The notes under the pieces: generated by a model | Seen by the model: the letters and a program-made list of their open reading frames with translations, nothing else | Databases searched by the model: none | Told to the model about the DNA's origin: nothing | In this document: positions 7,649-55,245 of the stretch, piece after piece | Layout of the letters: each line of letters starts with the position of its first letter | Numbering within the stretch: position 1 is the first letter of the stretch | NCBI RefSeq assembly: GCF_029873635.1 | Contig: NC_080418.1 | Location: 150,777,748 to 150,841,747, forward strand | Length of the DNA stretch: 64,000 nucleotides | Reading direction: 5' to 3' | Source of the DNA: Malania oleifera | Taxonomy: Eukaryota > Streptophyta > Magnoliopsida > Santalales > Ximeniaceae | Made by a program: the position numbers and the translations under genes

Positions 7649-10600
7649 CTGCACAAAGGGAGGTGGCTTCAGCATGCATGATCAGTCTCAACCTTGAAAA
7701 ATATTAAATTGACTTCTCATCACTGCAAAATTTTTTATGGACTATTTCAGATACCAAAAAAGGGGAAAAAATAATAATTCAGGACAGCAAATGGCAATGA
7801 AATATGCTCATTTCTGTCATTTAAATTCACAAAAACCAAAGATTTATGCTATTTAAAGCTACCCTGTGATTCCAAAGGTTCAAAAGATCCGAGTATGCAG
7901 CATATGAATTCAGCTCAAATGACAAATATAGCGAAATAAAGTTGCTTCGAATGGCAGACGAAGAACCAAAAAATGGAACTATTTCATTTCCAATTTCTCA
8001 CGTCAGTCACACAGGCCTCCTCATATAGTGCAGAAGTTTTTGTAGCGAAGATTTTAAAAGTTCCAGCAGTGAAGGCAATAAGTTACCTGTCATGATATAC
8101 TCAGGAGCTGCATACCCATATGTCCCCATTATTCGAGTAGATACATGAGATTTATCGCCTTCTGGTCCATCTTTTGCAAGGCCAAAGTCGGCTAGCTTTG
8201 CATTATAGTCCTGTTCATACGAGTGTAAAATCAAACCAAAACCGCAAGTCAAAGCTAGTAAGATGATAATAAATTTGTGGAAGACAGGTACCTTTCAGGC
8301 TTTGTTTGGAATATGGAAAATATGAAGGAAAACAAAAGAAAATAAAAAGGAATTCACTTTTCCCTTGTTTGACTGCCAAGAAAAAGTGAGAAAATGAATA
8401 ATTTATATAGCAAATCAATGAAGAAAATCTGTATTTTAGATCATATTCATTTGAACAAATTCTCATTCTTAGTATTTGATACAAAAAGAAAATATAGTAG
8501 AAAATTAATTTCTTTCTTATTTTCTTTTCCTTTTCCTCTCTCGCACAAAATCCTTAATGCATACAAATCCAAGGAATTGAAAAATCATTTTCCAACAGTC
8601 CACAAATATCAATGCTTTAGACCCAATGTTCCAAATAAAGCGGGTTTTGGACAGCAGCCAATTTGTAACTGAAACCCGTCTTTGGTACCATGAAAAGTAT
8701 ACACACAATATGATTCCACAATTTTCACCACCAATATTAGCAAGCAGTAGAAAGTCATGCGCTGCAGACTTCAAGTTTGCTCCAAACATAACACAGACAT
8801 TTGACTTCTTCTTTTTTTTCAGGGTTTATTTCCCGGGAAAAAGGAAGGCTCCATGCCTCGACAAATTACACCCTCATCCAATAACATTAAAAACTCTTGC
8901 AGTTCTGAATTTATTTGTTCATCAAACAAACGAAACCCATATGGATTACTTGATAATAAACTAATATACAGATTCTACTATACTAACCAGGTCTAACAAA
9001 ATATTTGAGGTCTTAAAATCACGATAGATGACGGGTTTCTCAGCTTCATGGAGAAAGGCAAGTCCCTTTGCAGCACCGAATGCAATCTTCATTCTAACAG
9101 ACCAAGAAAGAGGAAGCAAAACTCCTGCAACCATGATGCCATCTTTAAAAATAATAAATTATACCAAAATATTAAGAAGATTAAACGGAATACGATAACA
9201 AAGACAATGAACAATTGGTCTGGCACGTCAATGAAACCTGAAATATTTGCTTAAAATACAAACAGAATTCCAGAAATTTCTGAAGCATGTCCAAAAACAA
9301 GCCTCACTTTCAAATTCTTCTCCAAATGTCTTCTTAGAAACTGCTAGAAATCATTCCTCCGGGATGTCACTTTCATCCAGAAGCAACTATCTACTTACTA
9401 AATTTAATAACTTCCCTATCAAATTAATCATATAATGCAGCTAGAGTGCTGTTTTTACCTTCACCTTCCTTTTCTTGATTTGAGAAACACATCTAACAGA
9501 GCACTACAAATCCTTATATCAGCCATTGCTAGTTGCTGTTTGTTTTACTTCATTTGAAAACCACAATTACATCCATATTTGATTTGATTTTACTATGTTT
9601 GGAGGTTTGAGGGGGAGGAAGGATTTTTCAAATGAAAGGAATGGAAAAGGATCCCCCTCCCCTCCTTCCAAGCATAATGAATATGGGTCCTAAATTAAGT
9701 CTCACTGTACCAACAATGATGGGGCTAGGATCTCCTTCATTACAATTAAATTCTCTCAATGCATCTTTGGGTAGCTGGACGAATGCCATATAGGATAGTA
9801 GTTCAAATTTTATCCATGTGAATTTAAATTTTATCAATGTGGCATTTGTTAAAGCTTGATATACATTGTTGGCCCACAACCTAAGATGTAGAGACCCGGA
9901 AAATAGAAATAATAAGAAAAACAAAGAAAAAGAGGATAATGGTTTGGTAAGGACAAAAACGACGACAATTTTCAGGTTTCTGGAGTGCTCAGAAAACCAT
10001 CGACGATTTTCTCGGCAGTGCTGAAATTAAAGAAATCCCGCGAGCTTCATTTGTTAAATCAAAAACAAAATCTCTCTCTCTCTCTCTAAACTCTACGGCC
10101 CTAACCCCCTTTTCTCTTCATTTTCGCTCCAATTATGGCCTGTTTTGACGATCAAAAGTTACCATGAGGGTCGTGGGGTGATTCTCTGCAAATTAACCGG
10201 AGTGGATTGTTGAGTTGGAGCTTTGGGGCACCACTCCAAAACCAGGGTAAGTAAGGTATTTTAAGGTTTAATTGTTAATTTGGAGTATATAGGGTTTAGG
10301 AAATGCTAAATGAGAAATATTATGAGGGTTGAGTTGATTATGTGGGGAAAATGTGATTTCAGGGTTTTGAACTTCGAACGCCACGGGGCGTGGATTTAGG
10401 GTTGTTAGCAGGCTTCTCAATAAGCCAGGTAAGGGAATAGATTAAGTCAGGTATTTTCAGAAAATTAATTATTGAATATACAGTATCTGATTCAGAAATT
10501 TATATATGATTTAGTATAGCTTTTGGGAATATTGATGTTGAACTGAGGAAACTTCGAAAACAGATTTAACATTATTTTGTCAGCAAAATATGTTTTCCCA

Positions 10601-13600
10601 GGCCAGATAATTTATTACAGGGTAGTACTCACTTGTGTGTGGCATGAGTATAAATTTTACTGTAAATAATGATATGTCAGAATATTTTATGAATTCACAG
10701 TACAAGCCTGAATTGACAACAGTTATTTTAGAAAAACTATAAACAGTACAAAAATTATATTTTCAATATATTATGATATTCAGTCGGCCCAGATGTCGTG
10801 AACAGATTTATATATATATAATAGTTTATTAAAAAATTATGATATGACAGATTTTATGCAGAAATATGAAATGAAATATGTTTCAGTTATATATTATATA
10901 AAATGTACTATATGATATCAAAATCCCTGATGGACTAGGTATGTTATGAGCATGGTACCGTAGCTAGCTAGCCAGATCAAACAGTATAGCCCCTATTTGC
11001 CGACTCGAGAAGTGTTGCGGAGAGTAGGATGGGCGGACTAGGTCGGTGTTAGCTGACAATGTAACCCCTGTGTACCAACCCGGGAAGTGTTGCGGAGAGT
11101 AGGATGGGCGGACCAGGTTGGTGATAGCTGACAGATTAATCACACTATTTAGAAAGTGTTGGGTCGGAGGCCGATTAGCCTCGAAGTGTTGCGGAGAGTA
11201 GGATACCCACTGTGTGCCGACCCAAGAAGTGTTGTGGAGAGTAGGATGGACGGACCGGGTTAGGTGGGCAATCGTGCGTAGTTATGTCATGTTTGACTTA
11301 ACCTGATAAGTCAGCCAGAGTTAAGTCCAACCCACGGGCCGCACAACCCAAATCATGCGGGGTTAATTCATGATATACAGTTATCCATCTAGGGCATAAT
11401 TTTAGTAATATACAGATATAGTAGATGTTTTATATGTATACAGAAATTTAGTACGATACAATATGTTATGTTGATTTACGATTTATTCAGATTAATACAG
11501 AACAGTTTTACCTGACTTGTCAAATGCAGTTAAATTATGTACAGATCTTCCTTACTTATCAAATATAGTTTATCACAAATAATAGATGTTTATAACACAA
11601 TAATACTCATATTACCACACACTGATATTAGTTTATTTCCCTTATTGAGAGGTGTCTCACCCTAACAATACAAACATTTCAAGAAACCCTGATAGACAAG
11701 TGGACCGAGCTCCGAGATAAAGGAGGCTGATAGTGCTACCTTGATTGAAGGGTAAGTATTTGGATTAAAATCAGGATGGATTTTTGGGGGTATGACCTTA
11801 GGATATTTATGGTTCTTTTTGGTATGTACATGTGTATTTTGGTTATAGTAAAACTCTGGTATTGTATATAAGGTTGAATAAATCGTGGTTTCCGCTGTGT
11901 AGTTATCATGTATGTATGGACAGGTATATAACCGGTTTCCTTTGGGGTCCAGGTTGATTTAGTGTATGTTTTATGGTATTGGAGTTATTATTATTATTAT
12001 TATTATTAATATTATTATTATTATTATGTGGGAAAAAATATATAACTGAATTTTCGGGGCTTTACATAAGAGCTTAAGCTTTTAGGTAAAGCAGTAATCT
12101 AACATGGTACCAGAACTCTAGTTATCAGAAGGTCCTGAGTTCTAGTCTTGTCGTCCGCTTTTATTCTATGGTGTTATTTATCATTTGTTTATCTCTCCAC
12201 GTGTTGTCGGGCTGCACGTGCGGGGGAGTGTTAAACCTTGATATACATTGTTGGCCTACAACCTAAAAGTTTAAGCTTTTAGGTAAAGTGGTAATCTAAC
12301 AACATTCACCCAAGGAGTGCACTGAGGAAATCACCTATAACCCAACATATCTAAAAGCGGATTGGCAATGACAATATCTATTACGTACTATGTAACTTGA
12401 GGTTTTGGGAAAAGAGAGGAGCCAAAAGAGAGGAGGGAAATGAGAAAATAAGGGTGGACAGGGAAATTAACATTGCTGTGAATGTTTTAACTGCCATTTT
12501 ATTAGATTCATTGATTTTTTACACTTTTGTTCTGTACTAGTTATCATTTTGATCCCTAGGCTATTTCCTTTATCGTTTATTAATGAACACGTTAAAGGCT
12601 TGATAAACATTGTCGGCCAACAACCTAACAGATTAAGCAATTAGATAAGGTGGTGTTCTATAATGAGTAATGGTCTCCAGGAGGTCTTGGAGCCTAGTCT
12701 TGTTGCCTTCTTTTTACTCTATGGTTGCTAAAACTCATTATCTAATTCCCCGTAACAGGTGTTATTTATTATTTTTATTTTATCTCCACATTCAAGCATG
12801 GAATCAGGCTGCACATAGTAGATAAAGTGTGTTGATCTCAGTTAGCTCAATCTTCATCATAATCTGCAGTAACAAATGCTGCAATACAAAAGCAGCAGCA
12901 GATCATCTCTCACTCAGCTAATCAGTTAATTCTTGTGTAACAGCAATCAGTTGTATCAGTTGATTAGCATTGTAGTTAGTTAAGTTAGTTGTTTAGTTAA
13001 GTTGTTATTTGATTCTTTGGTTGTTTCTTTAGTTGTTAAATCATTGTATATATTTACACCCTTGTAATCTTCTCTGAATATGGAATAAGATTGAAATACT
13101 TTCATTCAATTTTAACATGGTATCAGAGCATTTTACTCTCTATTTTCAATTTCTAAATTCTTGATTTCATTTTTTTTTTTTTTTTTTTTTCGAATATCTC
13201 AATGGCTTCCACTGCTAGTTCATCGCAAACAACATCTACTTCCAATTCTTCGCAAGTTGTGTCCAATTCAAGCACAGCAATGGCGGACGAATATGCTAAC
13301 AATCCTTATTTTCTTCCTGCAAATGAAAATCTAGGTTTTGTTCTTACCTCTCAACCTCTCACTGGTCAAGAAAATTACATGAGTTGGGCTAGATCAATGT
13401 TCTTGGCTTTGAGTTCCAGAAACAAGTTTGGATTTGTAAATGGCTCAATCACAGAACTAGATTCTTCTTCCCCATTATTCAATTCTTGGAATCGCTGCAA
13501 TACCACAATTCTTTCTTGGCTAACCAATTCTCTGAGTATGGAATTGAAAGCTAGTGTGATGTACATCAATAATGCAAAGGATTTGAGGTTTGATCTTAAG

Positions 13601-16600
13601 GATAGGCTATCACAGGGTAACACACCACGATTGTTTGAACTTGAGAAAGAAATCTCTAATCTTTCACAAGGTTCACTCTCAGTGAGTTCCTATTTTACAA
13701 AATTCAAGACTTTATGGGATGCATTTATCAGCTATCAGCCTTTTACTGTTTGTTCTTGTGTTTGTACCTGTGGATCCAAGGCTTCTCATTTGGATGCTCA
13801 GCACAAGGAACATGTTTTCAGGTTTCTGATGGGCCTAAATGATAGTTATAGCAATCTTATTGGTCAAATATTATTAATAGAACCATTTCCTTCATTAAGC
13901 AAAGTTTGTTCTTTGGTTCTACAAGAAGAAAAGAGAAGGAACATTGGTCATGGTACCATGGGTTATAATCTCGAAGCTGCTGCTGCCATGTTTGTTAACC
14001 ACAACAAAGGGCAATTTCAGAATCACAATGGTGGCAAAGGAGGGCATTCTAAGAAAGAAAGGCCAGTTTGTACCTATTGTGGTCTAACAGGTCATATAGC
14101 TGATAAATGCTATAAACTTCATGGTTATCCTCTAGGATACAAACCCAAAGGAGGAAACAAGATTATGGCTAACCAAGTGACAGGTGGTTTTAGGAATTCT
14201 GATCCCACTACTGCTTTGACCAATTCTCAGGGCACTAATTCTCAAGTTAATGGTCGTTTGCCTGGTTCTTTGTCGCATCTTGGTCTTCACTTAGAGATCA
14301 TGCATGCATCAAATAATTTTGGTGGTTCTTTTGGAGCAGCTTCTATGGAGTCAAATTTCTCACAACAGCCTTCCTTGGCACAATGTCCAATTACTCAAGC
14401 TCAATGTGAGCAGTTGCTTTCCTTTTTGAAAAATCATTCAGCATCCGAATCAGGAATTGGTACTCAAGTTTCTCATCAGGCTACATATGTTACGGCACTT
14501 GTTGCATCTTCTACTCCCTATTGTTCTTCCAATTTTTCAGGTAACCCCTTTTGGTTTCAACCAAATCTATCTCATTTCATTTTTTCTACCCAATCTGTTC
14601 ATACACATGACTTTAAATCCAATGATTGGATCATTGATATTGGAGCCACTAGCCATATGGTCCATTATGTCTCTCAACTGACTTCCTATACTTCCATTGT
14701 ACAGTCTTATGTCTACTTGCCAAATGGGAAAAAGGCCTTATTCACACACATAGGCACAGTGCAACTTTCTTCTACTCTGACTCTCACTAATGTTCTATGT
14801 GTCCCTACCTTCAGTTTCAATTTAATTTCAGCTAGTAAGCTTAACAAAAATCTTTCTTGTTGCCTTATATTTCTTGGTAATTGTTTTTTCATTCAGAACC
14901 TTGTTCTATGGAGCACGATTGGTCTGGGTAAAGAACATAATGGGCTGTATTTGCTGCAAGATTCTACTGTGCACACTGCTCTTGCTGTCAATACTGTTCA
15001 TGCTGGTCATTTTTCTTCAGAATTGTGGCTCACTAGGCTGGGTCATCCTTCTTATTCCAAGTTTTCTTTGCTTAAAGAAGTTCTTGACATAAAAACTTCT
15101 AAGAAACCAGATTGTTGTGATGTTTGTCATTTTTCTAAGCAAGAAAAGACTACCCTTTGCTTGGAGTAGTCATGTTTCAAATAAGCCTTTTGAGTTAATA
15201 CATTGTGACCTATGGGGTCCTTTTGCTACTTGTACTCTTGAAGGTTTTAGATATTTTTTATAACAATTGTGGATGATTTCACTAGATGTACTTGGGTTTA
15301 CCTTGTTAAACAAAAATCTGATACTCAGTTTCTTCTTCCTCAATTTGTTGCATTAGTTAAAACTCAATTTAATGCCATAATTCAGACCATCAGGAGTGAC
15401 AATGGCACTAAATTTTTCCTTAAGGATTTCTTCCATAATAATGGCATCTTGCATCAGTTGAGCTATGTTGATACTCCTCAACAAAACACCATTGTTGAGA
15501 GGAAGCATCAACACATCCTAAATGTTGCAAGAGCATTGTTATTTCAATCCAAGGTACCATTGAACTACTGGGGTGATTGCATATTGATTGTTGTTTACTT
15601 ACTCAATAGGATTCCTTCCAAGTCTTTAGAAAATAAGAGTCCCTTTGAGCTTCTTTTCAATAAGTCTCCTTATTCTCATTTAAAATGTTTTGGCTATTTA
15701 TGCTTTGCTTCTACTCTCTCTCACAATGGGCACAAGTTTGCACCTAGGGCTAGAAAATGCATGTTTATAGGCTACCCTCATGGCATTAAAGGATATAGCT
15801 TTTGGATATTAAGACTTGTTTATGGTGTGACTCTTATACTTTGGATTTCATAAACAAAGAAGAAAGAGAAACATGAAGGGGCAGCACAGTAGGGGCTTGT
15901 CGATGAGTGTCCTGTGATCGTCGACGAGGAGACAGCAAGGACTCGTCGACGAGTGACCAATGCTCGTCAATGAGAAGATCCCGAAAGGCCCAAAAGTTCA
16001 AAGTTTCTAAGATACCGAAAGCAAAAAAATGGGATCATAGACGAGTGGAATGAGTCGTCGACGAGTGTTCTTCTTGGTCTCGTCGATGAATCCCCTGTTC
16101 TCGTCGACGAGAAGTTCTGGGCTACGAGCAGTTTTTTGAATTTTGAATTTGAACGTTGGGGTGGTTGAGTAAACAGAGGGAAACCTCTGAGAGTGTTATA
16201 TATGTCATTCTAGGCATGTATTGAAAAATGAGAGTGATCATTTGAGAAGTGTATTGTGTACTTTGTGATTTCCATAGTGAAATTTGTGTGTCATTGCTTC
16301 CGTGGATGTAGGCTTTGCCGAACCACGTAAATCTTGTTGTTGTTCTTGTTCTGGTTCTGTTTCATTTGCTTGTTATATTTATTCTGCTGTGTATCTTTAT
16401 TATTCGATCCATATCTCAACAAATTGGTATCAGAGCGATTGTTGTTATGGCATCGGGATCGTCTTCTGCAAGATTTGACATCGTCAAATTTGATGGAACC
16501 GGGAACTTTGGTTTATGGCCGAGGAGAGTGAAGGACATTCTTGTACAACAAGGAATGGCTAAGGCTCTACTTGATACTCAACCAGAAGGAATCGATGAGG

Positions 16601-19600
16601 CAACATGGGTAGATTTGAAAGCAAAGGCCGCTTCTACAATACGCTTGTATTTGGCCGACGAAGTACTCTATCGGGTGATGGAGGAGGATTCTCCAGTAGC
16701 TATATGGCGAAAGTTAGAGAGTTGGTACATGTCCAAATCTCTTAATAATAAACTTTTTCTTACGCAATGCTTGTATTGACTTAAGATGGTTGAAGGATCA
16801 AACTTAGATCAACACATTAATGCTTTCAATCAAATTATTTGTGATTTGATGAGAGTTGGTGTTAAGTTTGATGAGGATGACAAAACTTTGATGTTGTTAA
16901 ACTCTTTGCCCTCGACCCATACCTATGAAAATCTAGTGACCACTCTTATGTGGGGAAAAGAAACTCTTGACCTAGAAGAGGTAACAAATGTTTTGCTAAA
17001 TTTTCATCAAAGATTAAAAATATGTGATGAAGGAGAAGGACTTGTGGTAAAGGGTAATAACGAGCGAGGCAAAGGAAAATCCAAACATGGATCAAGTCAA
17101 AAATCCAGAAATCAATCCAAGAAGAAGAAAGAAATCCAGTGTTATAAATGTGGTAAAAAGGGGCATGTGAAACTAGAGTGTCCAGATTGGAAGAAGGGAA
17201 ATTCTGAGAAACATGAGGGTACTTCAAAATCTGTGAATGTTGTTCAAAAAGGAGGTTCAACGTGTAATGATGGTGATGTTCTATCAGTTTCAACGGGGTC
17301 AGATAATCTAACAGACTCTTGGATACTTGACTCGGCATGTTCTTATCACATAACTCCGAACAAGGAGTGATTCAACACTTACAGGTTAGTGAATTATGGA
17401 TCAGTTCTTATGGGTAATGATGCTTCTTGCAAGATCATTGGCATAGGAAATGTAAAGATAAAAATGTTTGATGGTGCTGTAAGAACGTTGTGTAAAGTAA
17501 GACATATACCAAAGTTGAGGAAGAGTTTGATATCATTCGGTACTTTGGATTGTAATGGCTTTAATTACAAGTCCAAAGATAGAATTATAACGGTATGGAA
17601 AGATAATCTAACTATAATGAAAGGGTGGAGACTGGATAGGAATATTTACACATTGCAGAGAACTACCGTTGTAGGTGGAGCTACAGCCATAGAAGTTGAA
17701 TCAGATGAGACCGTCTTGTGGCATATGCGTGTAGGGCATATGGGGGAACATGACATGAAGGAACTACACAAGAGAAAACTTTTGAAAGGCTTGAAATCAT
17801 GTCAGCTAGAATTTTACAGGATTTGTGTTCTTGGAAAACAGAACAAGACAAAGTTCGAATCAACTAAACACAAGACAAAGGGTAATCTTGATTATGCGCA
17901 TTCAGATGTTTGGGGCCCGGTTAGAGTTGCATCAAAGGGTGGACATGTGTATTATGTAAGTTTTATTGATGATTACTCACAAAAGGTCTGGTTTTACTTC
18001 ATGCGTCACAAATCAAGTACGTTTTCCAAGTTTAAAATTTGGAAGGCTGAAGTGGAAAACTTGACAGGGAGGAGAATCAAATACTTAAGGTCGGATAATG
18101 GGACCGAGTACGCTGATTCTCGATTTATGGAGTTTTGTGTGGAGCAGGGCATCAAAAGACACTTTACAGTTCGCCGGACATCTCAGCAAAATGGTATAGC
18201 ATAACGGATGAACCGGACTCTTAATGAAAGGGCCCGATGTCTCAGATTAAATGCAAGGCTACCGAAAAACTTCTGGGCCTAGGCAATGAGTATGGCTTGT
18301 TTTCTAATAAATCGATCACCAAGAGTGTAGTGACCCAAACATTTAAATAATTAAATAATGGAAGAAGGGGAAAAGGAAAAAGAAAAACAAGGCCTTGTCG
18401 ACGAATTCAGGGGGTTCGTCAACGAGACCAATCGTCGACAAGGGATCATTTCGTCGACGAGAAAGTACCGAGAGTACGTTTTAGGCATCTTTGAATTTCG
18501 TCGACAAGAGAAGAGTTCGTCAACGAATTGTCTTCTTGACCTCGTCGACGAAATAATGTGGCTCGTCGACGAAGGTCAGTGTATAAATAGTTCTAAACGC
18601 GATTTTTCAGTCCATTTTCACGCAGGAACCCTTCTCTCTCTCTTCCTTCGGCTCCCCTTACTTCTCTCTAGGATTTCAGGTCGATCTTTTACCGGTTCGA
18701 CGATCCGAGGCCACCACGACGCTCCTGGGGAAGTTCTCTTCATATCTGCCGAAGTAGATCATTGGTGGGGTTAGTTCGGAATCCATCCCAGATTCAGGGT
18801 AAGACTTTTTACTCAATATTTGACTTCTTCACAGTTGTAGAAAGCGTAGTACGCGTAGAAATACTGAATTTTAGTTCTGGAGAATATCATTTTCAGGATG
18901 TTAAACGGGGAACCCTGTGAATGCAGGACTGTTTTTCTTAAGGGATTTTCAGGAATCAGGTAAAGGGATAAACTAAGCTAATTGTATTATGAAAATTATG
19001 AGTAAAATTGTATAGCATTTGATTTCATGAAAATATATGTATATAAATGTATATATGAGTATTATGTTGGAAAATACTGCTAAAAATGATGATATGTTTT
19101 GGATATACATAATACCCATTTTTGTGTGGCATAAGTAAAATTTATGATGAATTACTGTTTTCTGAGAATATGATAATGCTATGGATATGTTTTGCTGGCG
19201 TACGAGCCGAGTTATGGATATGTTTTGCCGGCGTACGGGTCGAGCTATGATAAAATATGAAATGCCGACGTACGGGCTGATGATTTTCATGATATAAAAA
19301 TGTACAAAATGATGCGATGATATTGAGTTGGTAGTTAATAATATGAAATATCCATGTATCACAGTTTGATTATATGTTATATGTTATCAGAACCTAGTTG
19401 GCTTGGTTTAGGCTAGCACTTGCACGGTACCGTTGCTATGTATTCATGATCATCGTGATATTGTGTTAACGTTGCTATACGGAATAGCGTGAGGACGGAT
19501 AGTCGATGTGGTTTTACGAAGTGTGGATACCCCTGGTGCACAGACCAGGTCTGGTAGACTCATTGGACTTACAGACTGTACTTTTGACTTAACAGTGGTT

Positions 19601-22600
19601 GGCCAACCATTGTCAGGTCCCGCCTTCGGGTCACATAACCCAGTTATGTGGGGGTAATACATAACAACAGCAAGCTAACCTACCAAAGTTGTTTTCTTAT
19701 TATTATTATTGTATGAGATGAATTATGCTTAAAGAAATCCTGTATATTCTGTTATGCTATGATTATACATGTTTTTCCCAGAAATGATACATACAGTTTT
19801 ACTGGTTATGTTTATGTATATGTATATCACAGAAAAGCTCATGTTGCCACACACTAGCATTAGTTTATTTCCCTTACTGAGAGGTGTCTTACCCCAAAAT
19901 TTCATAAACATTTCAAGAGCCCCAGATAGAAGAGCGGATAAAACTCCGCTGAAATAGTTACGGCTGGTCTGCCCTCTCTGAAGGGTATGTATTTTGTGAT
20001 AGGGTCAGATGGATTTTTGTGGGAAGTGACCCTATGACTCTTTTGGGTGGTTTACATATGTACATACAGTGGATATAGTAACTCTGGTATTGTGATGGAT
20101 GACATTGTATATGGTATTATGAGTTATTTACGATTTTATGTTTTCTGCTGCTTAGGCTTCCATGCTGTTGAATCCCTGGTACCCACGGATTCAGGTTGAT
20201 TATGGCCAGCTAGATGTGTTATACTGGCTTTATTATATTATGGAAAAAAAATATATGTGAAAATTAGGCAGGTCATTACAAAGGGCATCACTAGAGGGTA
20301 GAGTGGCAGAAGAGGTTTGGACAGGAAATGCAGTAGACTATTCCGAATTGAAGGTATTCGGGTGTCCAGCCTATATTCATGTATCTAGTGAGGAGAGACC
20401 TAAACTTGACCTAAAGTCTCGTCATTGCATCCTTTTGGGATATCCAAAGGGTGTGAAGGGGTACAAGCTATGGGACCCAATGACAAACAAGGTGGTGATC
20501 AACATGTAGTCTTTGATGAAAAAGCTACGGTGAAGCGTACTCAAGAGTATGATGAACAGAAACAAGAGCCAGAAAGCTAGGGCAGTGATGAACATGTTGT
20601 GCAGGTGGAGTTGGAAGCTCAAGGCAATGAAAATGATCATGGTCCTATGGTTGTAGAGAGTTCTAACTCAGGAAACCAGCAAGTTGACGATATTCCTATA
20701 CGGAGATCCAGATGCACCCTCAGGCCTCCACCAAGGTATGGACTTGAAGAGTTAGTATCTTATGCTTTCCTTACTAGTTGCAACGATCCGACTACTTTTC
20801 AATAGGCAATGCATGGCCAGGAGAAAGATAGGTTGATGGGTGCGATGATTGAGGAGATAGAATCACTACATAAGAACCAAACTTTGGATTTGGTGGAGCT
20901 TCCAGATGGGAAGAGACCAATAGGTTGCAAATGGGTATATAGAAAGGAGGAGGCAATTTCAGCAAAGGAAGGAAAAAAATTCAAGGCACGGCTGGTGGCA
21001 AAAGGATACTCACAGAAGACGGGGATAGATTATGATGATATCTTTTCTTCAGTGGTCCGACATATTTCTATCAAAATTATGTTGGAGTTGGTAGCCCATT
21101 ATGATATTCATTTGGAACAAATGGACGTGAAGACGGCATTTCTTCACGGTGACTTGGAGGGACAAATCTACATGGTACAGCCGAAGGGGTTCATTGAACC
21201 GAGAAAAAAAAATTTTGTTTGCAGGTTGAAGAAATCTCTTTATGGGCTGAAACAGTCTCCAAGGCAATGGTATAAACTGTTTGATTCTTACATGATCAAG
21301 ATTGACTACAAGATGTGAGTATGACTGCTGCGTATATGTGAACAAGCTTGAGGATGGTTCTCTTATTTTCTTGTTATTGTACGTCGATGACAAGTTGATA
21401 GCTGCAAAGGATATAATTGAGGTGAATCAGTTAAAGGACCTGTTGCATAAGGAATTTGACATGAAGGATCTTGGTTCAACCAAGAAAATACTTAGGATGG
21501 AGATTTGCTGTGACAGAACTACTCCATGTCTCCAAGTGATAGAAGGGAGACATACCCAACCAAGCATTTCAAGTTCAAGGTGGAGCAGTTAAACATGTTT
21601 TTCAAGATTCTCCTAAGGGGCGTATAATCGCCAAGGTGGAGATTGTTGTTTGTGGTGTGGCTCTTATACTTTTGATTTCATAAACAAAGAAGAAAGAGAA
21701 ACATGAAGGGGCGGCACAGTAGGGGCTCGTTGACAAGTGCCCTATGATTGTCGACGAGAAGACAACAAGGACTCGTCGATGAGTGTCCTGTGCTCGTCAA
21801 CAAGAAGATCCCAAGAGGCCTAAAAGTTCAGAGTTTCTAAGATACCGAGAACAGAAAAATGGGATCGTCGACGAGTGAAATGATTCGTCAACGAGTGTTC
21901 TTCTTGGTCTCGTCAACGAGAAGTTCTAGGCCTCGAGCAGTTTTTTGAATTTTGAATTTGAACGTTGGGGTGGTTAGGTAAACGGAGGGAAACCTCCGAG
22001 AGAGTGTTATATATGTCATTCTGGGCATGTATTGAAAAATAAGAGTGATCATTTGAGAAGTGTATTGTGTACTTTGTGATTTCCATAGTGAAATTTGTGT
22101 GTCATTGCTTCCATGGGTGTAGGCTTTGCCGAACCACGTAAATCTTCTTGTTGTTCTTATTCTAGTTGTGTTTCATTTACTTGTTGTATTTATTCCGCTG
22201 TGTATCTTAATTATTCGATCCATATCTCAACAAGACTAATTTTTTTTTCATATCCAGAGATGTTCGATTCTATGAGCACATTTTTCCTTTTGAAAATTCT
22301 GTTAATCCTTCTATTTCTTATCTAGATAATTTTGTTTTTCTTCATTGTACTTCTGGTTCTTCTGATTTTCATTATGTTCCTGTTTCTTTATCTCCTCAAT
22401 TTTCTTCACATTCTCCCCATTTTGATACTTCTCCACAATCTAGTCCACCTTTACCTACTTCTACAGAACATTATTCTTCTAATCATGATTCTGAAATTCC
22501 TAGTTATTCAGCAAATGATCCTTCTAGCTTTGATTCTGCAGATGCTCTAGTGCCTACTCTCCCCTCTCCTTCCATAATTCCTCTTCCTCCTTTAAGAAGG

Positions 22601-25600: not shown

Positions 25601-27188
25601 AAGAAGATCATTAACTGGTTATACTGTTTACTTGGGTGAATCATTGATATCTTGAAATCAAAGAAGCAAGGAATGGTTTCAAGGTCTTCTGCTGAAGCTG
25701 AGAGCTGAGTACAGGGCTATAGCAAATGCAGTCTGTAAGATCACATGGGTGTTACAATTACTTAAAGACTTAAAGATTGAACAACCTAAGCCAGCCATGC
25801 TATTTTGTGACAATCAAGCATCTTTATACATAGCTGCAAATCCTGTATTTCACGAGAGGACAAAACACATTGAAGTGGACTGTCATTTAGTGAGAGACAA
25901 GATTATGGAAGGCATGATAAAGACTCTTCATATTGCAACAAATTCTCAGGTAGCTGATATTTTCATCAAGGCATTAGGATTCTCTTCCTTTTCAAGGCTA
26001 TCAGAAAGGTTGGGATTAAAGGACATTTTTGTTCCAAGGCAAAGCAAGATGAATTCTTCAGTGCAAGTCACAGAGATCAAGGATTGTGACTTGAGGGGGA
26101 GTGTTGATCTCAGTTAGCTCCATCTTCATCAGAATCTGCAGTAACAAATTCTGCAATACATAAGCAGCAGCAGATCATCTCTCACTCAGCTAATAAGTTG
26201 TTATTTGATTCTTTGGTTGTTTCTTTGGTTGTTAAATCATTGTATATAAATATACACCGTTGTAATCTTCTATGAATATGGAATAAGATAGAAATACTTT
26301 CATTAAATTTTAACAAAGTGATATTCTGAAGCCATCTTACAAGACAAGGCACAGGAAATACTTACTCGAGAAGAGATTATTTTCAACGCTACCTCGAGCC
26401 ATATATTCATATATTAGTACCCGGTGGTCATCTTCGCAGCAGTATCCAATTAGTTTCACCAAATTTGGATGAGAAAGCTGCCCCAAGAATATGACTTCGG
26501 CCTAAAAACCCACAAAACTTATAATGAAACGACAAAGGAAACCAAATGGAGTAAAATATAAGATGATAAAACATGTAAACACGGAGAACTTTTCTCCAAA
26601 GAAGTGGAGAAAAAATACCAGCCATTCTCTGTGGCCCTGAAAACTGTTATCCCCATCGTGAACTTTAACAGCTACTGGAAGAGACTGAAGCCCTTCCCTT
26701 ATATCCTTGGAAATGAATCCTTTATAAACACTTCCAAATCCTCCTCCACCCAGCACAAAATCTTGCCTAAAATTTCCTGTAATTATCTTTAATTCATCAT
26801 ATGCGAACACAATTAATGGATTTGCAGCTGAATCACGACGTAGGTACTCTACTTCTTCAGGATTTGAAGGCAATTTACTGTCATCCTTCCTTTGTTTCAC
26901 TGAGGGGCTCTGATCTTTTGGAGACTCTGAAAAGAAAAGACAGGAAAGCAGACCATCTTATTGTCTGACAAAGAGCAGATTGTATTCTATTATGCACCTT
27001 TCACCAAACATATTGACCTAAAAAAATCAGCAAAAGAAAAATTAAATTTCTACCTTCGAATAATAACAAGCTCTGTAAACTATACCAACAAAAGTTAAAA
27101 TTCTCTCTATAAGAATCAACTCTAATGGCCTAAAGTTCAACAAATATATATACATACACATACATACATTTATATGTATACATACATA

Positions 27189-27230
<42 letters not shown>

Positions 27231-30200
27231 CATACATATATATTCAAACTCCATGCAAAAAGAGAAGAGGCTCAGTATGTAATATTGCAGAGTTAAAAGC
27301 ATAATTTACCTGTGCAAAAAAGCATAAGTGTAGTCAAAGAGAGTAATCAGTTAAAAGCTTAATGAGCATATCCAGCACATGTGACGGAAAAGAACTTTGA
27401 AGATACCTTGTGATCTAGAATAAACTGAATGAGCACAAGATCAAACGTGCAACCATCTAATGCTATAACAAGAAAAAGTTTATTTATGAAACAACAACAA
27501 CAACAACAAAACCAAGCCCTAGTCCCACTAATTGGGGTCGGCTATATGAATCTTTTTCCGCCAATTTATGCGATCATGGACCATTCCTTTTGATAGATTC
27601 AAGGATATTAAATCCTTACTCACTATCTCCTCCCAAGTTATTTTAAGTCTACCCCTACCCCTTCTACTACCCCCCACAGTAACTAAGTCACTCTTCCTCA
27701 CAAGTGTACTATAAGGCCTACGTTGCAAGTGTCCATACCATCTAAATCGTCCCTCCCTTATCTTATCTTCTATAGGAGCTACACCTAACTTACCACGAAT
27801 ATGTTCATTCCTTAATTTATCTTTCAATGTTATACCACTCATCTATCTAAGCATCCTCATCTCGGCAACTTTTACTTTTTGGATATTATTTATGAAACAT
27901 AAAAGGAAAAATAAGAATAAATGGCAAAGGAAAAATATATGTAGACATATACAAAAAGAAAAAATGAAAAAAATTAAACTTTGTTAAGTTTGGCTGCAGA
28001 ACATCTAAAGGATAGAATGGCCGTGGTATAAGGACTTGATAGTTTATAGAAATAGACGAGGCAAATGGCAATGCAAAAAATTTTATTAGTCTATAACATG
28101 AAATAGACAATGAACGATTACGCCCAAATTTTTCCATGGGAATGTGTATTCCACTCCTATTCCATGTTGGATGGAAATTTGGAATAACATAAACTTTTGC
28201 ATGAATGACTTTTTTGTAAAATATAATATTCCTATAAATTTTTTTCTATTATCTTATCCCATTCCATGGACCAAACATAATCTAATGTGTTTTATATACT
28301 TATATTACTATTAAGATAACATTAAATTCAACAAACTTGACATGGTCGAACTCCAATCAAATGCAATAGTAAACAAATAAGCAATCCAAACGAAAACAGC
28401 AAAAGAAACACCATAATTTACTCAATTCAGCTTTCAATCCTACATTCACCGATGAGGGAGGAGAGAATATTTCACTATGAACCAAAGACAAAATGAAGAT
28501 CAACATTGTACGACACTCAATCCCTATCCCCACACATACCCAACCTAGGACTGCAAACAAGATAGCTGCTCATGAGAAACTTGGTACTGGACTCAATAGT
28601 GGCTCATCCAAGCCTATCGCTAATATAATTAAGCCGAGCTTGAGCTTAGTTTGAAATTCAAAAACTAAACGAGCCAAACTTGAGCTACATGATACTCGGG
28701 TCGCCAAGCTCGCAAGTTGGCTTATTTAAAAACTCAAACAACAAGCATGTTCTTATTAAGCTTATAAATTAATGAAGTAAATTCATGAACTTTTTTGTGC
28801 ATAGGCTCAAAAAATGACTTGTCTAGTTTGTTAAGAGGATCATTAATTTACATATAGTTTAGAGCTCATTTTAAATTCACATAATTTTGCACATATATTA
28901 TAAAATTATATTCTCTATCCACCACTAATTACATATTTATATATATTTTTTCAAAGATATTTTCATAACAGAAGATAATAATAGTAAAACACAAATCAAA
29001 GTATTAAACCTTGGGTTGTAAATGACCTAAATCATTTCTTTGTTTAGATTGATGAGGAATTTTAAGTTTAGTTTTAACTTGAAGCCCATTAAAAGACAAA
29101 AAAAAAAATTGATTTCATTTAGGCTTATTTTAAACTCTATCAATAAACGAATTGAACATGAACAAGGTTGAACTCAACTCTTCTAGTTAACGAACCATGC
29201 TCGAGCATAATTTTAAACCTAGTTTGTCAAACAAACCAAGCCTAATCATATTAACGTTCAGCTCTACTTGGCTCAATTGTAGGCCTAACCCAACCCCATA
29301 ATTTTTTCTAAAAGAAAGTCCAAATCCTACTAACACAAAAAATATAAATGACCCCTATGAATGAGAAAGAAATTGTTGGGTTAGGTCAAGTCCATACCGA
29401 GAACCCCAGCAACCCAAAAAGATTTCACATAGCGGCGGCAAACATAATAAGCAAAACTCAACGAGTGATAAGCCCTACCCTCAGCAAAGGGCCCCCTTTC
29501 TAATGAGCCTGCGGAAAGGGTTCCAAAACATCAACAACAATTCTATAAAGAACATTCCACTATTCCAGGACCACAAAAGAGAAAAGCAAGCCTCCTTTAC
29601 TCTCTTTAAAAACAAATGAAAAAGGAGCAAAACTTTATGAGTGAACATAAAGAAACCTTAAGGTATGCGCGTGTGTACATATATTAATTTTAGTTGTTTT
29701 CGTTGCAAAGAATCGGTAAGCCAATTCAAATTCCAGATTAAACATCCTTAAAATTCAGAAAAAGCAAAAAGAGGATGGACAATAAAGAAATAAATAAAAA
29801 TTAGAACAGCGCATGAGCAGAGTATCAAATTTTAATACGTGGCTGGAGGGAATGCTAATAAGAATCATCAAATTTTCGTCCCAGATATCATGGGAAAAGC
29901 AGAATCAGCTGAATGAAACAAAACAAAATAACAGACTATGAGGAGTTTGAATCAAAGTTCTATTCAACGTTCACTAATTTTTAGACAGAAACCAAAACCC
30001 AGCAAAGAAATCGCACAAGAAGCAGAACCCAAAGATCAAATTTTAATATGTGGCTGAAGGGAAAGCTCATAAGAATCATCAAATTTTTGTTCCAGATTTC
30101 ATGGGAAAAGCAAAATCAGCTGCATGAAACAAGACAAAATAACAGAGTATGATGAGTTTGAATCAAAGTTCTATTCTACATTCACTAATTTCTTCAATGA

Positions 30201-33140: not shown

Positions 33141-33583
33141 AAATTAAAAAGAAAGTTTTATAAAACAATTATAGGACCAATTATGTTATATGGATCAGAA
33201 TATTGAGCGACGAACAAACAGATACCCAAAAAGTAAAAGTTATCGAGATGAGAATGCTTAAATGGATGAATGGTATAACATTTAAAGATAAATTAAGGAG
33301 TGACATATTCGCGGTAAGTTAGGTGTAACTCTTATAGAAAACAAGATAAGGGGATGACGACTCATATATTATAAACACTTGCAACGTATGCCACATAATG
33401 CGCTAGTTAGGAAGAGTGAGTTAGTTATTGTGGGGACAATAAAAGAGGTAGGCGTAAATCTAAAATAATTTGAGAAAAGATGGTGAGTAAGGATTTAATA
33501 TTCCTAAATTTATCAAAAGAAATGACTCATGACCGCTCAAATTAACTTGTGAAACTTAATGTTTGGTTTTGTTGTTATTGCTC
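33141..33583 (+). mobile_element. RTE-type LINE, old 5'-truncated copy
   Basis: Decayed copy of the same RTE family: nucleotide homology to the C-terminal ORF region (GAGATGAGAATGCTTAAATG; GATAAATTAAGGAGTGACAT) through a GGTTTTGTTGTTATTG tail. A 17-bp target duplication ATAACCGGTTAAGGGGT / ATAACCGGTTATGGGGT (33124-33140 and 33584-33600) has one mismatch. Stops and shifts in every frame. Clearly older than the copies at 27493 and 55246. Confidence 0.88.
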
Positions 33584-34910: not shown

Positions 34911-36350
34911 TGTAACGACCCCAAATTTCTATTATATTTTATTATTATTGTTTTTTTACATAATATTAATAATACTCTGATATTATAAAACGTAGTTAAA
35001 GTCAACCTGGACCCATAGGTACCTAGGATCCACTTGTTTATACATACATGCTAACTAAGCAGCGAAAATCATAAAATATTTAAACTTATACACAATACCA
35101 GAGTTTACTGTTTATATATATACACATATACATCCCAAAAAGACCATAAATCCTAGAGTCATACCAAAAAATCCATCCTAATCCTGACTCAACTACTTAC
35201 CCTGCGACTGGGGTAGTACCAACGAACTCCTCTATCTCGGAGCTCGCTCCACTCGTCTGTCAGGGTTTCCTGAAATGTTTATAATGTTGGGGTGAGACAC
35301 CTCTCAATAAGTTAGATATACTAATATTTGTACCGACTGAATATCATAATATACTGAAAATATAATTTATGTACTGTTTATAGTTTTTCTAAAAATAGTT
35401 GTCTATTTAGGCTTGTACTGTGAATTCATGAAATATTTTGACATATCATTATTTAAGTAAAATTTATACACATGTCACACACAAATGAGTACTATACTAT
35501 AATATATTATCTAGTATGGGGAAACATGTTTTGTTGACAACAAAATATTAAATCTATTTTCAAAGTTTCCTCAGTTCAACATCAGTATTTCCAAAAATTA
35601 TACTAAATCATATATATATATATATATACTTTTCTGAATCAACTACTGTATATTCAATGATAAATTTACTGAAAATACCTGACTTAATCTATTCCCTTAC
35701 TTGTTTCTCGAGAAGCCTGTTGAAAAACTCTAAATCACTCCTACAATGTCCAGAACTCCAAACCCTGAAATTGCATTAACTCCAGTTCAATCAACTCAAA
35801 CCCCAATATATTATCATCTAACACATTTCTTGGGTTCACATATCCCAAATAACCACATAAACCCTAAAATAACTTACTTACCCTAATTTTGGGATAGTAC
35901 CCAAGAACCCTAAATCAACAATCCGCTTCAATTATCTTATAGAGAATCATCCCGGGATCATCATGATAACCTTCGATCGTTGAAACAGGGTAAAACAGAG
36001 CCAAATCAAAAGAGAGAAGGAAGGAGAGTCGAAGGTAAAAAGAGAAACTGAGAGAGGAAATGAATTTCTCGCTATAAATCTGATTCTCGACCATATATAG
36101 GCAGCTGTCCACATGACTTTGTCAATGAGACATGTGGACTCGTCGACGAACCGAAGAAGGAAGTTCATCGACAAAACCGGTGAGTTTGTTGACGAACATT
36201 TTAGGGTCTGAAATTTTTTCCCCTCTCGGTATCTCCTTATCGACGAGACATATGTACTCGTTGACGAACCTTGATCCCTTTTTTTTTTAATTCCTTTTCT
36301 TTCTTTCTCTTTTCCTTGTTTTCTCATAATTTAATTTTTAGGTCTCTACA
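34911..36350 (-). repeat. Tekay element 3' LTR, internally deleted
   Basis: 1440 bp against 2127 bp for its partner. It lacks about 670 bp in the middle (junction near 35330) and two palindromes of the U3 array. PPT AAGGAAGGGAGGA (minus strand) abuts it at 36351-36363. Confidence 0.9.
36118..36268 (-). promoter_or_regulatory. Contracted six-palindrome U3 array, Tekay 3' LTR
   Basis: Centres after 36123, 36144, 36169, 36190, 36241 and 36262 (21-25-21-51-21). The two outermost units of the 5' LTR array are gone: 46 bp, exactly 25+21, deleted between repeated GACGAACC sequences. TATA-like CATATATAGG at 36092-36101. Confidence 0.8.
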
Positions 36351-41500: not shown

Positions 41501-43627
41501 TGTAACGACCCCAAATTTATGTTATATATTACATAATATTAATAATACTCTGATACCATAAAACATAGTCAAACTCAACTCGGACCCAAAGGTACTTGGG
41601 ATCCACCTATTTATACATACATGCCAACTAAGCAGCAGAAATCATAAAATAGTTAAACTTATACACAATATCAGAGTTTACTATTTCTATATATATACAT
41701 ATACATCCCAAAAAGACCATAAATCCTAGAGAGTTATACCCAAAATTCAATCCTGATCCTGACTCAACTACTTACCGTGCAACTGGGGTAGTACCAATGA
41801 ACTCCTCTATCTCGGAGCTCGCTCCACTCGCCTGTCGAGGTTTCCTGAAATTTTTGTAATGTTGGGGTGAGACACCTCTCAGTATGGGAGATAAACTAAT
41901 ATCAGTATGTAGCAACATAAGTATTATCGTATTATAAACATATACCGCAAGTAATACAACTATAATATTTTAAGTCGTAACTAATAACTCATGGAAATCT
42001 GTGCTTTTAAACATAAGCATACTATATCATAATAAATTTTTGTAACATGTAAATCATCTGTTATATTTGTATATCACTAAGATTTTCCCCTGGATGGATA
42101 ACTGTATAGCATGGATTAACCCTGCATGATTTGGGTTGTGCGGCCCATAGGCTGGACTTAACTCTGACCGGCCTACTAGACTAAGTCAAACATGACATAA
42201 CTATGCACAATTGTCCACCCGACCTGGTCCGCCAATTCTACTCTCTGCAACACTTCTCGAGTCAGCACACAGTGGGTATCCTACTCTCCGCAACACTTCG
42301 GGCTAATCGGCCTCCGACCCAACACTTTCTAAATAGTTTGGTTGCACTATCGGCTATTACCAACCTGGTCCACCCATCCTACTCTTCGCAACACTTCTCG
42401 GATCGGCACATTGGCTAGTTAGTTACGGTACCATGCTCATAACATACTTAGTCCATTAGGGATTCTGATATCATATAGTACAGTGAAACATATCTCATTT
42501 CATGTTTCTACATAAAATCTATCATATCATAATTTCTAAATAACTATTATATAAATCAATTCACGGCATCTAGGCCGACTGAATAATTACGGCATCTACG
42601 CTAGCTGAATTTTATAATATACTAAAAATATTATTTCTTTACTGTTTATAATTTTTCTAAAAACTATTGCCCATTTAGGCTTGTACTATGAATTCATGAA
42701 ATATTTTGACATATCATTATTTACAACAAAATTTATACTCATGGCACACACAAGTGAGTACTACTCTTTAATGTATTATCTAGTATAGGAAAACATGTTT
42801 TGCTGACAACATAATATTAAATCTGTTTTTAAAGTTTCCTCAGTTCAACATCAATATTCCCAAAAACTATGTTATATATATATATACTTTTCTAAATCAA
42901 ATAATGTATATTCAATGATAAATTTACTGAAAATATTTGACTTAATCCATCCGCTTACTAGTTTCCTGAGAAACCTATTGAAAAACCCTAAATCACGCCT
43001 ACAGCGTCCAGAACTCGAAACCCTGAAATAGCATTAACCCCGGTTCAATCAACTCAAACCCCAATATATTACCATCTAACACGTTTCCTAGGTTTACATA
43101 TCCCAAATAACCACATAAATCCTAAATAACTTACTTACCTTGATTTTGGGATGGTGACCAAGAACCCAAAATCAACAATCCACTCTGATTATCATGGTAA
43201 CCTCCGATCGTTGAAATGGGGTAAAAAAGAGCCAGATTTGAAGAGAGAAAGAGGGAGAGCCGAAGGTAGAGAGAGAAAATGAGAGGAGAAATGAATTTCT
43301 AGCCAGAAATATGATTCTCGGTCATATATAGGCAGTTGTCCATGTGGCTTCGTCAACGAGACACGTGGACTCGTTGACGAACCAAAGAAGGAAGTTCATC
43401 AATGAAACGGTGAGTTTGTCGACGAACATTTTAGGGTCTGAAATTTTTTCCCCTCTCGGCATCTCTTAGTTGACAAGACACGTATACTCGTTGACGAACC
43501 AAATAAGGGCGTTCATCGACGAAACCAGTGGGATCGTCGACGAACCCTGATTCCCCTTTTTTTTTAAAAATCATTTTCTTTCATTCTTTTCCTTGTTTTC
43601 TCATAATGTAATTTCCGGGTCTTTATA
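41501..43627 (-). repeat. Tekay element 5' LTR
   Basis: 2127 bp. Minus-strand start is TATAAAGACCCGGAAATTAC (TG mutated to TA) and end AAATTTGGGGTCGTTACA. It is the more complete LTR: it keeps the middle region (about 41925-42596) that the 3' LTR has lost, including three inverse copies of the GTGTTGCGGAGAGTAGGAT motif. Confidence 0.9.
43348..43545 (-). promoter_or_regulatory. Eight-palindrome U3 array, Tekay 5' LTR
   Basis: Eight copies with centres after 43354, 43375, 43400, 43420, 43471, 43492, 43517 and 43538. Read in the element's own direction the spacings are 21-25-21-51-20-25-21, differing from the copia B array only in the central spacer. The spacer contains GATGCCGAGAGG on the minus strand. 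A TATA box (minus-strand CCTATATATGAC, about 43322-43333) follows the last palindrome by about 22 bp. Confidence 0.82.
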
Positions 43628-46380: not shown

Positions 46381-46384
46381 TATT

Positions 46385-46612
46385 CCTTTCCCTCTTTCTC
46401 GAGTTTTTTACTTGATAGAAAACCACAATAGCATTATGATGAAAAAATGAAACTCTCATTATGTTTATATACCGTCTATGACAAATCTTAGACTATTTTC
46501 TTCTCTCTTTCTCGATTTTTTTACTTGGTAGAAAACCACAATAGCATTAGGATGTAAATATGAAACTCTCTTTGTGTTTATATACCGTTTGTGATAAATC
46601 TTACTCTTTGTT
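46385..46612. repeat. Tandem duplication of about 115 bp
   Basis: Two adjacent copies sharing AGAAAACCACAATAGCATTA and GTTTATATACCGTYTRTGA: about 46385-46498 and 46499-46612. Confidence 0.85.
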
Positions 46613-47849: not shown

Positions 47850-49778
47850 TGTAACTACCCGAAGAATAATGGTATTTAAATAATAAAAAGGGAAAGAAAT
47901 GAAAATAGTAACAGAAAGAGGCAGTTGATGACATTGCACTTTGGGGATAATAACCGAAAATTTTTCCTTGGTCCTCGTCGATGAATACAGAGGATTCATC
48001 GATGAGGGTATAGCAGGACCTCATCGACGAGGACGAGCTTCATCGACGAGAAGATACCGAGAGAGGATTATTGGAAAGTCTGAAATTCGTCGACAAGGAG
48101 TTAGGTTCTTTAACGAACTTTCTACAGGACTTGTTGATGAGGTGACGTGGCTCATCGGCGAATTCCACAGTATAAATAGCACAAAACCTCGGTTAAACAC
48201 AGAATTTTAGCGCTGCTCTCTCTCCTCTCTCTCTCCTACGGCCCCTCTTCTATCTATCTTCGATTTCGGTCCTATCAGTCACCGGATCGACGATCTGAGG
48301 CCACCACGATGCTCCTGGTGAAATTCTCTTCAAGTCTACTAGGGCGGATCGTTGGTGGGATTGAGTCGAATTTCTCCCCATAATCAGGGTAAGGTCTTTT
48401 ATTCAGTTTTTGACCTTCTAACAGTTGTAGGAAATAATGTAGACCAAAAAATATTGATATTCTGTTATGGGAAATGTGGTTTTCAAGGTGTGGAATTGGA
48501 TGCCCTGCAAGTGTAGGACCAGTATACGATAGGGGCTTTTCGACAATTAGGTAAGGAAAACATGTTATGCTAAGAAAATCTAGTATGATTACAGTATGAA
48601 ATTTATGTTTTTACCAGATTATTATTCAGAGTATAAATTTATGCAATTTATTATTGAGGTTAAAGTGTTTTAAATTATTGTGTGGCATGAGAGTATAAAT
48701 AGCGTATAAAAACATGTTTATATAGTATTTTCAGGAATATGTTTTATAGAATATATAGACGGTGAAATGCGTTTATAGTGTCTTTCAGAATACCATGATT
48801 TTACAGTTTTACAGCACCATAACAAGTAGATTCACAGTTATCTCAGAAAAATATTGCTGATATAGTTACGGATTATTACAGTATCATGATTTATACAGTT
48901 ATTACAAAATCTGGTAAAACAGTTAGTTGTATATAAAAACATATTATATAGTATCAGACCTTGATGGATCAGACAGCAAAGCACGGTACCGTAGCTACAG
49001 ATAAACATATATTCAGTTCAGAGTGCAACCATTTAACTCAGATAGTAAGTGGTATGAGGTAGATCGTGCCTAGTTATGGACAAGTTCCCCATCAAATATG
49101 GTTGAGGAGGGCCGATTTGACCGAGGAGTATAGTGGTTTACCCTGGTCGGCCAGCCACGATAGATCCAGCTTTCGGACCGCACAAACCTGTTATGAGGGG
49201 TTAAATCATGATATACAGTCATCTAGGGAAATATTCTTAGATATTATAGTCTTATCAGATTTTTCGAAATAGTAGTATTATTATGAAAAGTAATTTCATA
49301 CAGTTTGACATGTTAAATTATGTAGTTAAAGGTTTTATAATATGTTATGTAGTATCAGCATTTTCAGTTTTAGTTATTTGTACTACTCTTAACTCAGATT
49401 AATTTTTACAAATCTACATCTCAGTAGCCACATACTAGTAATAGCATGTTTCGTCTTACTGAACTTTGATTCATTCTAGTGTTGAATTATTTTTCAGGTG
49501 AGTCAGTTGGGCGAGTGGAGCAGGCTTGCAGATAGAGGAGTTGTCAATTTGTCCTTTTGAGGGTGAGTGTTTTGGTGTTCAATTGTGTTAGCTCTAGTAT
49601 TAGTAAGAGTAGTTATTGAGAGTACAATGAAATATGTAATATTTGTGGAATATTTAGACACTTTGGTATTGTCTATATATATAAGGTTGTGTTTCATGTT
49701 ATTTGTTTTCCGCTGTGTAGGAAATTGTTTTAATTTAAAATAACAAAGAAGGTATAATTTTATAAGAAGGTTGTTACA
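47850..49778 (+). repeat. Tekay-like gypsy LTR (5' LTR of a mostly deleted element)
   Basis: 1929 bp, TGTAACTACCCGAAG to AAGGTTGTTACA, followed by a primer-binding site (TGGTATCAGAGC, 49782-49793). This makes it a 5' LTR. Almost no internal domain follows. It contains a U3 palindrome array and the TATA box GTATAAATAGC at 48170. Confidence 0.82.
47974..48162 (+). promoter_or_regulatory. Eight-palindrome U3 array, gypsy LTR at 47850
   Basis: Centres after 47979, 48000, 48025, 48044, 48091, 48111, 48135 and 48156; spacings 21-25-19-47-20-24-21. GATACCGAGAGAGG lies in the central spacer. The TATA box begins about 14 bp after the last centre. Confidence 0.82.
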
Positions 49779-55220: not shown

Positions 55221-55245
55221 ATAAATACAATTGTAAAAACTAAGA

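Follow-up and report, generated by a model that had tools for sequence, protein, structure and literature searches.

The closest described counterparts of the structure reported here are the repeated motifs (RMs) in Sirevirus LTRs, i.e. dyad-symmetric sequences which number 8-18 copies among the table rows considered from Bousios et al. 2010 (PMC2829016), lie a short distance upstream of a conserved TATA box in a CpG-rich patch, and were termed Sirevirus-specific and missing from the classic Ty1/copia elements compared there. One palindromic motif of maize Sireviruses is shared by Helitrons (PMC10760457). Clustered LTR sites for host factors are likewise found in several families of Brassicaceae COPIA elements including ONSEN, whose heat-response element grew by duplication (PMC5059998). 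In gypsy elements, Del/Tekay LTRs contain CpG islands, again a CpG-rich and variable stretch in the 5' part of the LTR, which the eudicot members studied there lack; the main text of that report has no word beginning with 'palindrom' (PMC4029996). In the Tnt1 superfamily, evolution of U3 is modular and separate from that of the coding part, a modularity that in the sections of the report considered here stays inside one copia family group and involves no cassette shared with gypsy elements (PMC1838419). In the literature cited here, in the parts considered, LTR promoters are described as arising by convergence or by gain within a lineage.

The palindrome arrays described below resemble the Sirevirus RMs as multiple dyad-symmetric copies in U3 upstream of TATA. 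An initial annotation of this DNA knew of no described element of this form, a statement that is not supported in that wording, because Sirevirus LTRs with palindromic RM arrays ahead of TATA were published in 2010 (PMC2829016). The present arrays differ, however, in their core (TCGTCGACGA in the carriers examined, as opposed to a CGG-CCG core there in all but Tnd-1 (ACAATCGATTGT)), in their fixed spacing code and spacer box, and in their carriers, which include gypsy elements (10 of 33 arrays lie beside pol) and a second copia family. As in ONSEN, growth was by duplication; whereas the Brassicaceae COPIA gains are described as independent and mostly species-specific (PMC5059998), here a long homologous module occurs across superfamilies. 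What is new, measured against the open-access literature, is that one motif, one spacing code and one spacer box span gypsy and two copia lineages. Among the matches listed in this literature, none has one module common to gypsy and copia; among those listed for TCGTCGACGA there was no title on LTR regulation and among those for GTCGACGA with retrotransposon LTRs none on a plant LTR array, GTCGAC arrays and copia-gypsy recombination had no match there, and for palindromes in Tekay LTRs the closest title concerns insertion targets.

The window, i.e. the whole stretch of 64 kb analysed (C2:150777748-150841747), comes from a genome of 1.49 Gb with plant-type LTR retrotransposons. With up to three mismatches, the 12-mer YTCGTCGACGAR has 80 matches in it, three times the expectation from 100 shuffles (mean 26.3, s.d. 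5.3, maximum 41), and four-member chains spaced 20-22/24-26/20-22 occur seven times, compared with none in 40 Markov-model sequences of 64 kb. The motif scan re-found all four arrays of the initial annotation with the coordinates and spacings given there, i.e. centre spacings of 21-25-21-71-20-25-21 at 15896-16111, 21-25-21-51-20-25-21 at 43349-43544 (in its own, minus, direction), 21-25-19-47-20-24-21 at 47974-48162 and 21-16-19-47-19-25-21 at 18394-18573; two LTR arrays absent from that annotation lie at 21726-21920 and 36118-36268 (table 1). With up to one mismatch, GATACCGARAG has six matches in the window, every one within an array.

Table 1. Array-bearing LTRs and related features in the 64-kb window.
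Feature	Position	Strand	Basis or remark
Copia B 5' LTR	15817..16421	+	LTR pair 15816-16422 / 21646-22233; ends, PBS and target duplication read
Copia-B U3 module, eight palindromes, 4 + 59-bp spacer + 4	15896..16111	+	motif scan
Copia-B module spacer with two GATNCCGARAG boxes (15977-15987, 16011-16021)	15975..16033	+	box search
Copia B TATA-like box, last palindrome 85 bp upstream	16197..16203	+	
Copia B 3' LTR	21644..22232	+	LTR pair and target duplication
Copia-B 3' LTR array, seven palindromes	21726..21920	+	motif scan
Gypsy-type LTR start, inserted in copia B	18326..18589	+	68% identity over 518 bp to LTR at 48039-48554
Gypsy T 3' LTR array, six palindromes	36118..36268	-	LTR start 36350 in own direction
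Gypsy T 5' LTR array, eight palindromes	43349..43544	-	half arrays are direct repeats
Gypsy-type LTR array, eight palindromes	47974..48162	+	TATAAATA 8 bp later
Array-less LTR, internal control	9887..12000	+	TGTAGAGACC start as in gypsy T; short U3

Copia B, a complete insertion, spans 15817-22232 between two copies of the 5-bp target duplication AGACT (15812-15816, 22233-22237) and has the Pfam domains gag_2, zf-CCHC, Pol_BBD, gag_pre-integrs, rve and RVT_2, which identify it simply as copia; we presume it to be of Tnt1/Tork type. The array at 18394 belongs to a separate LTR within copia B and not to copia B itself; its end at 18573 is followed after 8 bp by TATA (TATAAATA, 18582-18589). Gypsy T occupies about 34.9 to 43.6 kb on the minus strand, has arrays in both LTRs and contains the gypsy protease/integrase domains RVP_2 and SH3_Tf2-1, the latter being the integrase C terminus at 36660-37067, just upstream of the 3' LTR (Pfam). 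Its label 'Tekay' comes from the initial annotation; Chromo matches that fall short of the Pfam cut-off (E 0.003 and 0.011) were found in two of its relatives and none in gypsy T itself. The LTR at 9887-12000, which is 76-79% identical to the post-promoter part of gypsy T, has no array, and the window scan gave no 12-mer match in the two stretches that putatively are the LTRs of copia A (12829-13117, 26101-26315); the array thus is an optional part of an LTR. Protein-based scans of viral contigs for relatives of the copia B RT or the gypsy T protease gave none that was confirmed, and two pattern scans of such contigs returned nothing useful (ten loci with GC 0.58-0.75 in the first, eight loci in the second). 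Other repeats are present in the window: a 75-bp unit is repeated at 10981-11272 in the array-less gypsy-type LTR (84% and 68% identity to the first), and two direct tandem copies of 113 bp (88% identity) lie at 46378-46603, upstream of the 47974 LTR. Related stretches at 27490-27889, 33141-33543 and 56203-56602 (95% and about 81-82% identity, one inverted) overlap or adjoin RVT_1 at 55221-56030 and look like a LINE-like (non-LTR) family, and a YTH-domain (m6A reader type) coding piece at 60078-60692 likely represents a host gene amid the transposons.

Genome-wide, perfect TCGTCGACGA decamers form 21,522 pairs 13-43 bp apart, with zero for the backwards control. Among the 84 distinct pairs listed, 58 are spaced by 19-21 bp, 25 by 24-26 bp and one by 43 bp, single steps being 20 bp in 30, 21 bp in 20, 24 bp in 18 and 25 bp in six. 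Triplets of cores with a first step of 18-20 bp and a second of 22-24 bp number 700 in forward and 714 in reverse orientation (control 0 and 0), in a decamer-spacing pattern that sits one base below the 21/25 form and misses it, so that this count and the 60 arrays fetched from the triplet list, all on contig C1, are skewed to 20/24 and to young, well-kept arrays; the pair search is free of this bias, and the copia-B sample was chosen independently of the palindromes. A chance-level frequency was looked for and not seen, the pattern lying far above the control. The exact steps across the genome deviate slightly from the 21 and 25 bp initially proposed, 20 and 24 bp being frequent among the pairs listed. 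In 40 triplet-list arrays, spacings were 20 (104 cases), 24 (77), 21 (40), 19 (15), 46 (14) and 47 (10), tallies that partly reflect the choice of the sample, and eight palindromes were present in 13 and nine in 12 of the 40.

The arrays are located in U3. In 35 parsed 'gypsy-type' modules, which include the wrong-strand duplicates L039_+4980 and L044_-4963 and several partial or poorly fitted ones (29 of the 35 score 20 or more), the last palindrome precedes TATA by 8 bp in 11 and by 6-11 bp in 19, with nine unmatched; the Sirevirus-like L028 introduced below is counted as gypsy in this set and in the tree, fold, first gap and 35-stretch BLAST sets. Among 40 further arrays, the distance is 8 bp in 16, 7-11 bp in 23, 18-20 bp in five and 107 bp in two, with ten unmatched. 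The mode in gypsy-type LTRs is 8 bp, whereas TATA is 85 bp away in copia B and about 107 bp in the Sirevirus-like family; close coupling to TATA is therefore a gypsy trait. Many gypsy-type modules have GTGACGTGT, TGACGTGG or CCACGTGT as their last gap, i.e. an ACGT-core site which we take to be bZIP-type and which is missing in copia B modules; in gypsy T (43349-43544) and related modules, CCACGTGT or GTGACGTGT lies in the final gap before TATA.

Copia-B copies were identified through the LTR part following the array (16112-16422), with 40 places scored among 3,996 first-look candidates, and the array was present in 19 of 20 copies fetched from the 38 outside the window, the exception being L051. 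These copies show a spacing of 21-25-21-70/72-20-25-21, with some palindromes lost, and the 18-base form of their spacer box occurs 23+14 times in the genome (control 0). The palindrome array is a family trait of copia B.

A third carrier is a copia family of different type. L072, L075 and L102 have 12 palindromes arranged as 4+4+4, and L028 has ten, with a 112-bp unit repeated in direct order at 85% identity; the tails of these four LTRs are unlike the gypsy tail, and downstream of its array the L028 LTR has no match among ten pol-linked gypsy LTRs. In L028, L107, L108 and L109, the LTR end is preceded by CACCCCCCC...CTCTA, a polyC signal of the kind reported in Sireviruses (PMC2829016); a search for such an end across the 64-kb window found none. 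The locus L109, at the place of L102, contains contiguously an array LTR, a PBS-like site, and gag, CCHC, Pol_BBD, gag_pre-integrs, rve and SH3 pieces, and its order of gag, CCHC, protease region and integrase is that of copia (Pfam). By these sequence features, the L109 family is classified as a Sirevirus-like copia, i.e. a second copia lineage with the module. At L108:2143, about 440 bp past the first, there is a second polyC LTR-like end with a TGGTATCAGAG primer site directly behind it, as if a further Sirevirus-like element adjoined the array LTR.

An important point is how far the likeness between carriers extends. Eleven arrays are tied to gypsy pol, i.e. 10 of 33 arrays in 20 loci that are rightly placed, plus gypsy T. 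At E<1e-3, the L109 module matches 10 of these 11 (best L043, 72% over 188 bp, E 4e-25) and the copia-B module six, whereas the LTR flanks before and after the module match 0 of 11 for either family. When all gypsy-type stretches are compared, which in the flank tests extend from 150 bp before the module to about 700 bp beyond it, BLAST matches are obtained in 39 of 41 for the L109 module (best L029, 75.8% over 190 bp) and in 13 of 35 for the copia-B module, again with 0 matches for the flanks. Thus, the initial view of one U3 module common to copia and gypsy LTRs with unrelated flanks is borne out, and homology is confined to the module, with no likeness over the full U3. Minus-strand matches (copia B 11 of 35 stretches, L109 34 of 41, some stretches being unoriented) mean that the palindromes themselves carry part of the BLAST signal.

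The bases between the palindromes are shared as well. In comparison with 24 gypsy-type modules, they give z 6.5 for three Sirevirus-like copies and z 4.1 for six copia-B copies (taken from 13 regular ones), with 0 of 500 permutations reaching either value; after row dropping, the two gap tests comprised 25 and 24 modules and the ranking 56. In copia B, this non-palindrome homology is weaker and consists chiefly of the GATACCGAGAG box following palindrome 4: the signal sits mainly in the first 16 spacer bases (z 4.7), and of the other seven segments only gap 2 is below 0.05 (0.022), with gap 6 at 0.058 and the spacer end, at 0.988, below chance; the total of -18.8 barely exceeds the highest value from 200 random stretches of the window (-20.8). 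The nearest modules are L029, L091 and L084 for the Sirevirus-like family and T5, L045 and L034 for copia B, and the two nearness rankings are uncorrelated (Spearman -0.10, p 0.48, 56 modules). In the module tree, L028 groups with L029_4918 (support 78) and with L043_4869, one of the pol-linked gypsy arrays, and L027_4843 (support 90); the position of copia B is without support. No gypsy pol was found next to the arrays of L084, L087, L091 and L083 (loci L111-L114); the post-promoter LTR parts of L084, L087 and L083 match 6-8 of ten pol-linked gypsy LTRs and that of L029 eight, L091 with its 13 bp being left out. L113 contains a weak copia integrase piece. The array at L045:4868-5055 is preceded at 481 bp by the end of a gypsy integrase and followed at 2.2 kb by a gypsy gag-side piece, as if one LTR served two elements.

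Gaps between palindromes are alike in direct order (z 2.8-8.7 in gypsy-type and 4.0-12.8 in copia-B modules, the latter being inflated by the close relationship of the copies), which together with the 80% identity between the array halves of gypsy T (43348-43427 and 43465-43545) and the numbers of 8, 10 and 12 palindromes is explained by direct duplication. Among mismatches in the core, CpG transitions account for 153 of 167 in copia B and 150 of 169 in gypsy-type modules (about 90%). Pairwise comparison of 18 copia-B copies gives differences of 1.4% at core A/T, 31% at core C/G and 9.5% at non-CpG gap sites. The CpG-transition excess indicates a core that was almost invariant in the source copies and has decayed as methylated DNA would, a result somewhat favoured by accepting no more than four mismatches per palindrome.

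The initial annotation had left exchange of the module or convergence as alternatives, and exchange between superfamilies is best supported, with convergence less likely, because carriers also share bases between the palindromes. Convergence would mean separate gain in each lineage with the same host factor selecting, as in the Brassicaceae COPIA heat-response elements, where recurrent independent gain is documented (PMC5059998), and the inter-palindrome likeness of copia B is indeed weak beyond one box; overall we consider it unlikely. For the Sirevirus-like family, it is already disfavoured by the extent of the likeness to the pol-linked L043 (72% over 188 bp) and the gypsy-type L029 (76% over 190 bp), which includes the spacer and several gaps, by the nesting of L028 among gypsy-type modules (support 78, 90), and by the agreement in order, count, box position and overall layout.

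Two further readings dispense with an activator or even with DNA as the functional form. That the palindromes pair with one another within the 3' U3 of genomic RNA and form a long hairpin for packaging or for recognition as dsRNA by the host seems improbable to us: compared with dinucleotide shuffles, folding is much stronger in three modules (z -4.6, -3.5 and -8.0) and the palindromes of maize Sireviruses are hotspots of small RNAs (PMC5311732, PMC10760457), but when gaps are shuffled with the palindromes kept, mean z is -0.02 for 22 gypsy-type and +0.55 for 18 copia-B modules. The full mirror fold from P1:P8 to P4:P5 is predicted in just 10 of 40 modules, gap likeness is direct rather than inverted (with the exception of gypsy gaps 2/6, alike in both orders), and a hairpin does not need self-palindromic arms all along. 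As the gaps add nothing to fold stability, an RNA hairpin as the selected object was rejected as the main reading. The array might act through cytosine methylation as a CpG-dense target of silencing or anti-silencing, an idea to which we give very little credence. Eight perfect palindromes contain 24 CpGs, the observed/expected ratio of CpG lies at 1.33-2.12 in five modules of the window as opposed to 0.63-1.08 in adjoining DNA and 0.56 in the window, and the prevalence of CpG transitions among core mismatches is the mark of methylated decay; for such a target, however, dyad symmetry, strict spacing and a fixed place before TATA would be superfluous.

The best explanation, and in our judgement a probable one, is that the array is a promoter/enhancer cassette of LTR retrotransposons which is bound by a host dimer and has been exchanged between gypsy and copia elements. 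The sequences themselves demonstrate the anatomy, spacing and abundance of the arrays, the restriction of homology to the module and its build-up from direct repeats; protein binding, cooperativity and activation, as well as route and direction of exchange, are what we infer in this scheme. The array would be a proximal enhancer/promoter cassette, in which pairs of palindromes about 20-21 bp apart, set two by two at 24-25 bp, make up a half array, and half arrays in direct order are joined by a spacer opening with a ATACCGAGAG-type box. Each TCGTCGACGA dyad is most likely bound by a homodimeric host DNA-binding protein, adjacent dimers may cooperate over 20-21 bp, and the row of palindromes would activate the TATA box downstream. 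Enlarged through direct duplication within LTRs, the cassette would have moved between chromovirus-type gypsy elements and two or more copia lineages, probably through template switching or recombination of co-expressed elements, with U3 being replaced and the remaining LTR spared. A more far-reaching version, which we put forward tentatively and with some doubt, is that the cassette itself is the mobile part that jumps between superfamilies, two copia lineages having received it in two or more transfers whose sources were different gypsy subfamilies, that it is copied within LTRs four palindromes at a time, and that it now drives much of the LTR retrotransposon load of this one genome via a single host dyad-binding protein.

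If this sharing between gypsy and copia is true, promoters would be tradeable across superfamilies, which would also explain how unrelated elements come to be under one host regulator. With one 10-mer and one spacing code, the cassette could thus provide a ready motif both for finding this regulator and for testing the trade.
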